A stretch of DNA of 64,000 bases from Pseudomonadota bacterium (lineage in GTDB: Bacteria; Pseudomonadota; Gammaproteobacteria; Steroidobacterales; Steroidobacteraceae). Shown here piece by piece: positions 50,167 to 53,438 of this stretch. The notes under the pieces are model-generated. The model saw nothing but the letters and a program-made list of their open reading frames with translations, ran no database searches and had not been told where the DNA came from. The translations under genes were made by a program, and so were the position numbers. Every line of letters starts with the position of its first letter. Within the stretch, counting starts at the first letter, position 1. The stretch covers positions 1 through 64,000 of the forward strand of contig JAJZDX010000022.1 of NCBI GenBank assembly GCA_021805865.1. The letters are read 5' to 3'.

Positions 50167-50419
50167 CCGGGTGCGCCGGGTGAATGTGGATAATGACAAG
50201 GCCGATGGCCCCGATCCTGGTCGAGGGTCAAGCGTACCGCCGGGGACGGGCGTGGGGCAGGTGAAAAGTACATATGCGCTTCGGCCGAGGACCGAAACGT
50301 CCAAGATCGGACATTGCGTACCAGCCCGGATCCAGCGCCATCCGCGCTCCCTGCATGATGTTGTGACCGCGCAGGCGGGACCGGTCGCAGGTGCGCCCTC
50401 TCGCCCATCGCCGCGGCCC

Positions 50420-50770
50420 GTGTTCCGCCACGTTGCCTCGAGCCTCTCCACGGTCTACCTGACCGCCGGAGAGCAGTTGACGGTCACTCCCCTGCGGCGC
50501 ATGCGGCCGGTGCGCACGAACGTCACCGACACCATTGCCTGGGTGCACCACAAGCTCATCTTCGCCTCGACGGCACTGCGAGATGTGGTCCAGGAGTTCA
50601 ATCGCTACAACGCCCGGCAGCTGGTGATCGCATCGCCCTCGCTCGAGACCTTCAAGATCGACGGCGTGTTCTCCTCGACCAATCCGAACTCTCTGATCGC
50701 ATTCCTTCGTCAGTACCCTGGGATCCAGGTGACGGACACCGGCGAGAGTGTGGTCATCTCCCGACAATAG
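50420..50770 (+). pseudogene. FecR anti-sigma/sensor protein, C-terminal fragment
   Basis: From about 50447 the frame reads [12 protein letters not shown], then DTIAWVHHKLIFASTALRDV, VQEFNRYNARQLVIA, and IDGVFSSTNPNSLIAFLRQY. This is the periplasmic C-terminal (STN/DUF4974-like) part of a FecR protein, ending with a proper TAG at 50768-50770. The DNA-proximal half, the membrane helix and the sigma-binding N-terminus are missing. The open frame reaches back to 50171, but that part is not FecR-like. It is probably a remnant of a fecI-fecR-TonB-receptor unit whose receptor stub lies at 53130-53438. Confidence 0.7.
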
Positions 50771-50835
50771 CCCCGGGTGAGGTCTCATCCAGGCCCTCGG
50801 ATAATATGGTGACGTAGGCCTGAGCATAGCCATTT

Positions 50836-51100
50836 GTGCCTCACAGGCTAAACAGCCTGCCGGCGCAGTCAAGTCAGCAGGGAATTGGATCCCGGAGGGA
50901 CCAGCTGACGAGCCCCCGGTAGGCACGGAAGTCCGGAACCTGCGACAGCGGGTGAAGGACGGTGCCGTTGAAGTCATCGCGCAGCGCGACGTCCGCAGCA
51001 GGTGGCGAGTGTCGAGGGGTGTATTTCAGGCAATCGCCGAGTAAGGACGACCGCAGGGAAGTACGAGGCGCAAGCCTCCCGGAGACGCGAGGCTTCCGCC
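50836..51100 (+). ncRNA. Structured RNA candidate, HEARO / omega-RNA-like (tentative)
   Basis: A dense set of perfect stems is visible on the plus strand. P1 gtgcct (50836-50841) pairs with aggcac (50921-50926). P2 is hairpin caggct-aaac-agcctg (50844-50859). P3 gtcagc (50873-50878) pairs with gctgac (50904-50909) and encloses ggga/tccc. P4 acctgc (50938-50943) pairs with gcaggt (50998-51003), enclosing tcgcg-cag-cgcga (50977-50989). P6 ggcga (51004-51008) pairs with tcgcc (51034-51038). P7 is gaggc-GCAA-gcctc (51065-51078), with a GNRA loop. The block caggctaaacagcctg followed by gcgcagtcaagtcagc recalls HEARO/omega-RNAs of IscB; a group II intron domain I fragment is an alternative. No IscB/IsrB ORF follows. 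Confidence 0.45.
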
Positions 51101-51135
51101 GCCTGGGCTACCACCTTCCTTGGCTCTTCGAGATC

Positions 51136-52638
51136 TCACACCAGTTGGCTATAGTCGAGCAAGTCCCGGCAGAGGTATCCGCGCTGAGTCAGCACTTCGC
51201 GCTGAGTGCGATTGAACTCCGGAGAAAACAGCACTTTCTCGGAGTGCCACTCTTGCAGATGGCGGTGGTCGCGTGTGTGCAGAAACGCTGCCACATGCCT
51301 CTCGAATTTTTCAATTGCAGCATTGTCGTGAGCGGATGCTGAACGCTTGCACGAACCTAAGCGAAACCGCCGGTTCGGCTCATCCAGTGCGACTAGGTCG
51401 ATTGCGATCGCGTTTGCGGCATCCCTCGGTCTGTTCCAATATCCGAGCCGCATCTCCGAGAGTTCGAAATCACCCTTCCCCTTGCGGGACATCTCTGCGT
51501 GTAAATTGCGGATCAGCTTTTCGAACGCCACACCCTCCAAGGCCTCAAGCCTGCGCAATGCAGGAACGAGGGCCTTTTCCATAGGCTTCAGGCGGACGGC
51601 CTCCCGCGCAGGCTTTGCGACCGCCAGCCAAGCCTTAAGGAAGTTGTCGGTAATGTAGTAACGCGCGTTGCGGCTCTTGCTGTTTGAAAAGACCGGATGA
51701 AGCCCATCGACCATGCCGTAGCCGTTCACGAGCCGTGTGATGTGCGTACCGAGGGGAGTGCGATCATGCGGGTCATTCAATGCACTCACAAGTTCGGCGT
51801 GGTTACAGCCTGGGCGGTCCGCCAGGTAGTGAAGGATCGATACGGAGCGCCCACGAAGCTCTCGCAGGAACCAAGTGTCAGCTTCCTCGGAGAGTGGACT
51901 GGATCCGCGCAAGAACATTCGGATGAGCAGCTCACGGGACAGGTCTTGTGGCGCAACCTCATACAAGTACTGCTCAAAGGCATCGTGATAAAACTTGGGA
52001 ACGCCTTCGAAGAAGGTCCACAACGTGAGCCACTGCGAAGGTGACTGGATATTCTGGTTACGGAAGACGCTCATCAGGTCCTGAAAGTCCCAGTGATCGA
52101 GCTTAAGCTGCGCAGTAATGCGACCGTAGAGGGGAGCCGCCTTGTCCTCCAGGAGCGCGCTCATTTCAGAATGCAGCGAGCCGAGCACAAACAGTCCGCC
52201 TCTGTTGAGTCCGGCGTTGCGCAGCTTGTCTACTTCCGCTTGCAGAAAGGAATTGAATGAACTGAGGCTTGCTCGCGTAAAGTACTGGAACTCATCCAGT
52301 ACAACGATTCTGCCGTCTCGACACAACGTGCCGATGGCATCGGCCATCGTCGGAAAGTCAGTTACAGCCTCAGCAAGCGCGCGAATATCGTCGTGATCAG
52401 CCTCACTCAGACTTCGGCGGAATGTCGCCGCAACATCTCGCTCGTCGGAGTCCGGTGTCTGCATGTAGACGATCCGAGACCCTAGATCGTCGCTGGTTCG
52501 GGCGAGATTGCTGAGCAGCATTGTTTTGCCAATGCGCCGTCGACCTTCAATCCGGCAAAAGAACCAGCGGCCAGCTCCGACAATCCGAGGCAGTTCCGCC
52601 AAAGGTTCGGCGCGGCCGTAAAAACCCCATTCCCGCAT
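51136..52638 (-). CDS. AAA ATPase, ATPase_2 / DUF234 type
   Basis: This 500-residue protein has an N-terminal P-loop ATPase with FYGRAEPLAELPRI, Walker A GRRRIGKTML near 32-41, and Walker B RIVVLDEFQYF near 109-119. A sensor-like LFVLGSLHSEM and LKLDHWDFQDL lie in the middle, and a C-terminal domain (about 360-490) has RLEALEGVAFEKLIRNLHAE and AIAIDLVALDEPNRRFRLGSCK, like DUF234/restriction-like ends. The DELVAL-to-K spacing could be a degenerate PD-(D/E)XK core. This family is common in archaea and patchy in bacteria and is often mobile. Codon use is visibly less GC-rich than the neighbours, which implies acquisition. Confidence 0.8.
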   Translation of the reverse strand: MREWGFYGRAEPLAELPRIVGAGRWFFCRIEGRRRIGKTMLLSNLARTSDDLGSRIVYMQTPDSDERDVAATFRRSLSEADHDDIRALAEAVTDFPTMADAIGTLCRDGRIVVLDEFQYFTRASLSSFNSFLQAEVDKLRNAGLNRGGLFVLGSLHSEMSALLEDKAAPLYGRITAQLKLDHWDFQDLMSVFRNQNIQSPSQWLTLWTFFEGVPKFYHDAFEQYLYEVAPQDLSRELLIRMFLRGSSPLSEEADTWFLRELRGRSVSILHYLADRPGCNHAELVSALNDPHDRTPLGTHITRLVNGYGMVDGLHPVFSNSKSRNARYYITDNFLKAWLAVAKPAREAVRLKPMEKALVPALRRLEALEGVAFEKLIRNLHAEMSRKGKGDFELSEMRLGYWNRPRDAANAIAIDLVALDEPNRRFRLGSCKRSASAHDNAAIEKFERHVAAFLHTRDHRHLQEWHSEKVLFSPEFNRTQREVLTQRGYLCRDLLDYSQLV

Positions 52639-53129
52639 GTTTCACCGCAAGAGACATTTTTGTATCTTAAGATAAATGAGCGGTTAACACATTGATTATG
52701 AATGCCTTTTCTGTGAACTGCAGTCTGAATTTCACAGCCGCCGTCCTCTGCCGGGGTCGGGTAGCTCATGAGGCGGGTTTTTCGCAGCCTCAGGCGGCAT
52801 AGCCTCTAACTGTGCAGCACAGCCCAACCAGCGCAGCCAGACCCAGCGGCAGTGGAATCAAGAAGGTGTTTGGCGAAGGCAAGAGACAGATCCGCGGAGC
52901 AAGCAAGCGCCTTGCCAGAAATTCGCGAAAACGCATCGATCACCAGAAAGAGGCGGATTTGGATCCCCGTTAACACAGGGTGAACGCGAACCTGCTGCGC
53001 AAGGGGGTGACGCGGGAGTGTTCCGGTGTGTTCAGCCGGCGCAAGCGCCGCAGCGAGGTTCGGTTCCGCCAAGCGAAGCGGTACTGGTGCCGGTCAGGAC
53101 GGTTGCGCCGGCTCGTGAGGCACCAGTGT
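52639..53129. other. Foreign-looking intergenic region between the ATPase and the TonB-receptor stub
   Basis: The first 120 bases are AT-rich and contain the ATPase promoter. The rest has no convincing gene. A minus-strand frame at 52806-53072 contains RLFLVIDAFSRISGKALA, which weakly recalls the DD(E/D) integrase core of an IS3/IS481 transposase, so a decayed transposase scrap is possible. No terminal inverted repeats were found by eye. Confidence 0.35.
52659..52687 (-). promoter_or_regulatory. Promoter with palindromic operator for the AAA ATPase
   Basis: On the minus strand TTAACC (52682-52687) and TACAAA (52659-52664) are separated by 17 bases, a fair sigma-70 match (4 of 6 each). The spacer contains most of the perfect 12-base palindrome TATCTTAAGATA (52663-52674), a classic position for a repressor site. 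The start codon is 20 bases downstream of the -10. Confidence 0.4.
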
Positions 53130-53438
53130 GCGCGAGCGGTTACCTGGAACTTGTCGCTTCTGGCGGGACAGTACCAGGAGCCCTACCTGGATACTCCCTC
53201 GACGGTCACGCAGGTGCCGCGCCACGTCTCGGCATACGACACGATCAACACGCAGGCGTCGTACACGGGGCTGCGCCACTTCGACTTCACGCTCGGGGTG
53301 ATCAATCTCTTCAACCAGAGCCCGCCATATGCGAACTATGCGTCCATCGCCAACAACTTCGTCGGCGGATACGACCTCACCTATGGCGATCCGCGCGGAC
53401 GGTACATCTACGCTACCGTCCGGTATCACCTGCATTGA
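53130..53438 (+). pseudogene. TonB-dependent receptor, C-terminal barrel fragment
   Basis: About 100 residues match the end of a large TonB-dependent receptor: WNLSLLAGQYQEPYLDT, then VSAYDTINTQASYTGLRHFD, TLGVINLFNQSPPYANY, and GYDLTYGDPRGRYIYATVRY to the stop at 53436-53438. The signal peptide, STN/plug and most of the barrel are missing. Upstream in-frame residues are not receptor-like. With the FecR stub at 50420-50770, it looks like one receptor locus split by insertion and deletion. It precedes the M42 peptidase, a frequent neighbour of such receptors. Confidence 0.75.

Follow-up and report, generated by a model that had tools for sequence, protein, structure and literature searches.

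What is the densely structured, noncoding segment that ends just before an AAA ATPase gene near position 51,100 of the window, i.e. of the whole 64,000-nucleotide stretch of DNA analyzed here? The first-pass annotation read it as a free-standing HEARO/omega-RNA, the guide scaffold of an IscB-type nuclease, with a group II intron fragment as its main alternative. A blast search with 50780-51140 of the window returns two independent sets of matches, one for the upstream and one for the downstream piece. The downstream piece (50869-51098) matches a locus in the window's own genome (L002, 86%) and, from 50892 on, a locus of the same genus (L004, 79%). Upstream, 50789-50870 matches a second locus of the own genome (L003), 50789-50859 matches L005, and part of it matches L006; these three lack the downstream part, and the upstream piece (module A) recurs alone within the genus. 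The structured segment itself is a conserved 222-base element (module B, 50870-51091) with helices that covary among relatives. The features of the locus are as follows:

50789..50861, + strand: module A, a short repeat of its own (CCAGGCCCTCGGATAATATGG...CAGGCTAAACAGCCTG) outside the element; blast to L003, L005, and L006, and alignment
50865..50869, + strand: signature of the left junction, G-C-AGT (a non-C base and a C ahead of three free bases); layout shared by 12 of 13 copies in the genus and by 63 of 64 in genome G132
50870..51091, + strand: module B, the structured mobile element; 86% to L002, 79% to L004, and placement by covariance models R1 and R2
50873..50909, + strand: 5' hairpin GUCAGC/GCUGAC (50873-50878 with 50904-50909) around a second stem closed by C-GGA-G; consensus helices 1 and 2
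50912..50999, + strand: central multibranch domain, with 50912-50919 and 50993-50999 as its closing helix; consensus helices 3-6
51009..51088, + strand: 3' domain with closing stem GUGUC (51009-51013)/GACGC (51084-51088), C-GAG coming after it at the right end; consensus helix 7, 96.7% of cells paired
51136..52638, - strand: AAA ATPase/DUF234-type gene, a neighbor outside the element (Pfam PF01637, PF03008)

The 5' end of module B was set from its C(G/A)A start and the 3' end from the C-NNN rule described below, with an uncertainty of about 1 base; R1 and R2 put the element at 50869-51096 and 50869-51092, respectively, the window copy being in both training sets. All the stems named in the first-pass annotation are present in the sequence, and several of them do not belong to one RNA. 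Specifically, the proposed closing P1 (gtgcct/aggcac, 50836-50841 with 50921-50926) would join module A to the downstream element, the supposed HEARO-like start (gcgcagtcaagtcagc) crosses the junction of the modules at 50869/50870, and the suggested guide (50805-50835) falls inside module A, an independent repeat. CAGGCT-AAAC-AGCCTG (50844-50859) aligns as the 3' end of module A. The GNRA-capped gaggc-GCAA-gcctc (51065-51078) is in the window, imperfect in L002, lost in L004, and absent from the consensus fold. The AAA ATPase gene was correctly placed next door on the opposite strand, and the broader description of a free-standing, structured, probably mobile noncoding element with no nuclease gene adjoining it holds.

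The module A repeat (CCAGGCCCTCGGATAATATGG...CAGGCTgAACAGCCTG) occupies 50789-50861 in the window and 1501-1582 in L003, and is also found in L005 and L006. In the window and L003 it lies 0.3 kb past the 3' end of AAA ATPase genes, so that it may be part of that gene or the sign of a hot spot for insertion; the two ATPases are distantly related (25.6% identity over 258 aa). Two further open reading frames of the window (50171-50770 and 52980-53438), considered as FecR and TonB-receptor genes, were dropped, as neither has a Pfam match at E ≤ 0.01. A protein-coding remnant was rejected for the element, given that the indels between its three closest copies do not come in multiples of three, and ten translated frames of the element family match no Pfam family above cut-off, DUF1658 included.

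The search for further copies that the first-pass annotation had called for succeeds within the own genome, which holds L002 and a further copy, L064. The latter (46 bits) is one of four members, with L051, L052, and L055, found by R1, a covariance model made from three copies. R2, made from seven sequences, finds 12 loci at ≥50 bits, spread over 8 of the 58 genomes of the genus; of these loci, seven are training sequences and five are new (L074, L075, L076, L077, and L082), four weaker genus matches being left out of this count. A contig from a viral collection (L115) carries a copy with the same R2 score as L076. Several copies sit in integrative islands beside relaxase/LPD7, DUF3987, integrase, or IS21 genes, and several are intergenic. 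Blastp of the open reading frames near the copies reveals no shared neighbor gene, only same-island pairs, mobile-element genes (IS21, relaxase, DUF3987, and integrase), weak paralogues, and chance open reading frames of the element. L064 lies at the start of an LPD7 relaxase-type gene without a relaxase domain match (L123/L064) and, because that match is lost, may have broken a mobilization gene.

Other signals from these searches were set aside. In genome G042, R1 matches five identical-scoring 34-base hairpins (L061, L066, L067, L069, and L070; model positions 97-130), which are a separate small palindromic repeat. Short blast matches (L007, L008, and L010-L013) and a pattern match (L014) of 21-51 bases, by eye within genes, were taken as chance, with nhmmer E-values of 0.0007 for L007 and 0.0027 for L014 under a 3-sequence profile. 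Pattern scans of viral contigs gave 0, 0, 29, and 28 stretches; one of the 29 is an R2 member (L115), and the 28 of the last scan were judged chance by eye. A pattern search across the phylum hit 3 of 398 genomes, i.e. the own-genome copy L064 and two stretches judged chance. Plasmid and phage collections hold no match for the window element, nor any for L086 and L088 (plasmids), L187 (plasmids and phages), or L194 (plasmids). Four viral contigs (L097, L102, L107, and L120) share a different conserved stretch from the pattern scan (GGACGACGAGCCATGGAGAGCACAGCGAGTGCTCTGGCGCAC...AAAGGACGCC), which in L097 scores only 15 bits by R3, the model described next.

Beyond the genus, R2 has weak matches to five solo copies in G406 and also in G374 and G128, and a third covariance model, R3, was made from these three genomes alone. 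Among 369 genomes around G406, R3 finds the element at E ≤ 1e-4 in 43, including 40 that lie outside its training set; up to six candidates were scored per genome, so the copy numbers from this search are to be read as "at least." These wider-family members are listed in the same class as the window, presumably Gammaproteobacteria. R3 matches back four genus copies at 29-42 bits, five others at only 10-17 bits, a range in which one stray match also scores, and at E ≤ 1 gives no match to 3 of 12 (the window copy, L127, and L131); in 355 kb of unrelated control loci, chance gives R3 15 bits at best. As R3 misses the window copy, the window is tied to the wider family via L002, L004, and other genus copies, and as R3 matches in the genus reach over roughly the initial 150 bases, it is layout that speaks for homology of the 3' domains.

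The element is abundant in G132, a complete genome of 3.45 Mb. Here, 20 stretches totaling 399 kb contain 53 R3 copies, which extrapolates to about 450 copies and about 4% of the genome, while 20 stretches (400 kb) of five other genomes contain none. The 64 anchored G132 copies are on average 96.6% identical, and two pairs of copies are arranged head to tail with two bases between them, as judged by model coordinates. The element is thus short, multicopy, and without a transposase gene, as a MITE is.

Folding single sequences of the window, also proposed in the first-pass annotation, does only moderately better than chance: for 50820-51120, z = -2.57 and 3 of 100 shuffles fold equally well, and for 50866-51105, z = -1.72 and 12 of 200 shuffles are as good. 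L064 and L055 fold no better than their shuffles (z = -0.39 and -1.07, respectively). A MAFFT alignment of ten genus copies has a consensus of 49 pairs, laid out as a 5' hairpin, a multibranch domain, and a 3' domain whose closing stem has about 5 pairs; 20 of the pairs have changes on both sides, and the counterparts of the 5' hairpin in relatives read GGC/GCC or GCC/GGC. The covariation score is 0.324, compared with 0.144 for shuffled alignments (0 of 500 reach the observed value) and 0.04-0.10 for slid ones, and one of five covariation measures, further pair types, does not exceed the shuffles (96 of 500). In a wider alignment of 52 distinct members (A12), which was aligned and fitted to R3 and leans toward its structure, both partners have changed in 37 of 49 pairs, and no shuffle reaches the observed value on any of the five measures (0 of 500).

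Paired cells of A12 contain 301 G-U and 23 A-C combinations, and this excess indicates that one strand is the folding strand; the GC-rich genus copies, with 19 and 18, carry no such strand signal. The window copy leaves 12 of the 49 consensus pairs unformed, the most of the ten genus copies, including two middle pairs of the central multibranch domain, and, as a partly decayed copy, is probably inactive.

The L004 copy sits antisense inside a Tn3/IS1071-like transposase gene, with ...LLANLVMAWNT in the left piece and DEMQSILDRR... in the right one; the gene is intact in L048, a relative on a Variovorax plasmid (MAWNTAQMQAVLDRW). By eye, at most about 1 base was duplicated or lost in this insertion. 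The L004 contig is also public as JAPTUI010000201.1, from a Pseudomonadota metagenome bin. At the left flank, the rule is non-C, C, three free bases, and then the element. With the start fixed without regard to the flank, C is found at -4 in 12 of 13 genus copies, the window included (G-C-AGT|CAAGTC). In G132, C is at -4 and non-C at -5, each in 63 of 64 copies, and the three free bases form 35 different triplets. The fixed-start comparison, from which two unanchored rows and one duplicate are dropped, also has C at -4 in 12 of 13 additional copies from G132 and in 32 of 35 copies from elsewhere, L192 being a one-base anchor shift.

The right ends were read from 51 of 54 matches in one set (two are cut by contig ends and one is a duplicate) and from 52 of 53 matches in the G132 stretches; there, the element again closes with C and three bases before the flank, with about 1 base of ambiguity. 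Among the 64 anchored G132 copies, the flank following the C-run begins with GG or GA in 58. In tandem copies, the second is inserted at the right end of the first. No target duplication is seen at the junctions examined, and no long repeat stands out by eye; L190 and L197 show 5-6 equal bases at both ends. Among the G132 copies, no variable element position covaries with the three free bases, i.e. there is no internal guide signal. To our knowledge, this "three bases after C" rule, at once loose and strict, is unlike known insertion rules.

Taken together, these data make it likely that 50870-51091 is an old, decayed copy of a non-autonomous, gene-less mobile repeat of 200-290 bases with a conserved fold, moved in trans. 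Its identity as a mobile repeat is well supported, and strand-specific structure and mobility are evident from the alignments and insertions described above. For the route of movement, we infer that an enzyme supplied in trans would recognize the folded single strand, cut it three bases past a C in the flank on the left, make a second cut of this kind where the element ends on the right, and join the freed strand into another such C-NNN site. This geometry would resemble single-strand (HUH/Y1) transposition, which is described as a cut at a fixed distance past a short motif at the left flank, with a like motif at the right end and no duplication (PMC8266576).

One rival explanation is that the repeat is a miniature of the IS200/IS605 (Y1) type, with its structure selected in single-stranded DNA and not in RNA. 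The missing target duplication, the subterminal hairpins, the C-NNN cut rule at left flank and right end, and the tandem copies at the right end of a first copy all agree with such an origin, and we consider it a serious possibility, if somewhat short of an even chance. Against it, the candidate enzymes do not track the element: Y1 transposase is found in 2 of 8 element-bearing genus genomes and 13 of 58 overall (these genomes are incomplete), and TnpB in 5 of 8 and 26 of 58, with no contig in common with the element. In addition, a single base of the left tetranucleotide is fixed, the free bases show no covariation with any element position, and G-U pairs are many. The conserved one-strand structure fits an RNA intermediate, and with it a piece of a group II intron or a SINE-like RNA turned into DNA by a group II reverse transcriptase. 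A match to this enzyme occurs in 5 of 5 covered element-bearing genus genomes and 19 of 37 genus genomes (P about 0.03, uncorrected, and confounded by richness in mobile elements), which is a weak hint. We nevertheless regard a group II origin as unlikely: cmscan of 50300-51600 against Rfam gives 0 matches at E ≤ 1, group II and HEARO models included, and nothing like domain V, nhmmer and blastn against 30 group II reverse transcriptase loci of related genomes give best E-values of 6.3 and 2.1, and the L004 insertion is antisense to the gene it entered.

A solo HEARO acting in trans with an IscB or IsrB elsewhere shares with the element its stand-alone, structured, and mobile nature and the lack of a visible target duplication. 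HEARO RNAs also exist in the genus: among 60 genomes, the RF02033 model scores 88.4 bits in G013 (L046, over cut-off) and 52.6 bits in G011 (L047, under cut-off). G013 carries both a HEARO and the new element, on different contigs, and is the only one of five covered element-bearing genomes with a HEARO. In addition to the empty cmscan, the whole window has 0 matches at gathering cut-off, the own genome has no RF02033 match, and across 33 loci with family members no Rfam match overlaps the element, those listed falling outside. The core HEARO stretch (CACCcugGgAUGCuucgCcAGU) is absent, the G013 and G011 HEARO alignments have no helices or conserved loops in common with the element, and no IscB/IsrB gene lies downstream of it, the neighbor being the AAA ATPase on the other strand. 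The HEARO identity is accordingly extremely unlikely. A cellular small RNA or cis-regulatory element duplicated by happenstance would suit the several intergenic copies, and is very improbable in view of the hundreds of near-identical dispersed copies in G132 with none in 400 kb from five other genomes, the insertion within a transposase gene, and the junction rule. The moderate fold z-scores would be expected of ordinary spacer with stems arisen by chance, a reading to which the homologues and the covariation relative to shuffled and slid controls leave next to no room.

The family is not in Rfam 15, and a search of the open-licence PMC literature, consensus strings included, did not find it. 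Going further than the trans-mobilized repeat favored above, we tentatively suggest that it could be a previously undescribed selfish nucleic acid, i.e. a 200-290-base element without genes in which the folded strand, be it RNA or single-stranded DNA, would itself be the substrate of transposition, spread through a bacterial class at up to several hundred copies per genome by an enzyme for which little would matter beyond "not C, C, any three bases" ahead of the cut and GG or GA behind it. If so, a repeat filling about 4% of G132 and present in 43 of 369 genomes has had neither an Rfam model nor a known mover, and its high-copy hosts would make the moving enzyme findable. The case also cautions against naming stand-alone structured RNAs near mobile genes omega-RNAs by eye.

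Among known systems, HEARO/omega-RNAs (RF02033) resemble the element in size, mobility, structure, and the capacity to stand alone, as stand-alone HEARO RNAs exist; the element fails their model, and its helices and conserved loops are different. PATEs, miniatures derived from IS200/IS605 elements, are cleaved at a motif lying 5' of their left end and at a related motif on the right, and carry subterminal hairpins. The element is alike in the flank and right-end motifs and the subterminal hairpins, and differs in that a guide in PATEs pairs with four or five target bases that are fixed, whereas it has one fixed C only. The MITEs QMITE1 and QMITE2 of Coxiella burnetii are likewise short, gene-less or with chance open reading frames, present at about 50 copies per genome, predicted to fold stably, and often located at gene ends (PMC5896051). 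In that description, QMITE1 measures 300-400 bp, with inverted repeats of 21-28 nt and direct repeats of 2-3 nt (PMC5896051); no comparable inverted repeats or duplications are seen in our element, which is set apart from QMITE1 by this description and not by sequence. Compared with IS200/IS605 elements as outlined in PMC8266576, the element has only one fixed base among the four upstream. REP/BIME sequences moved by TnpA-REP (RAYT) are also high-copy and gene-less, with a one-strand structure, a cut at a short motif (CT, CA), and no duplication (PMC8266576). However, REPs are 20-40 nt long with a 5' GTAG (PMC8266576), whereas the element described here is a multidomain structure of 200-290 nt, cut three bases past a C.
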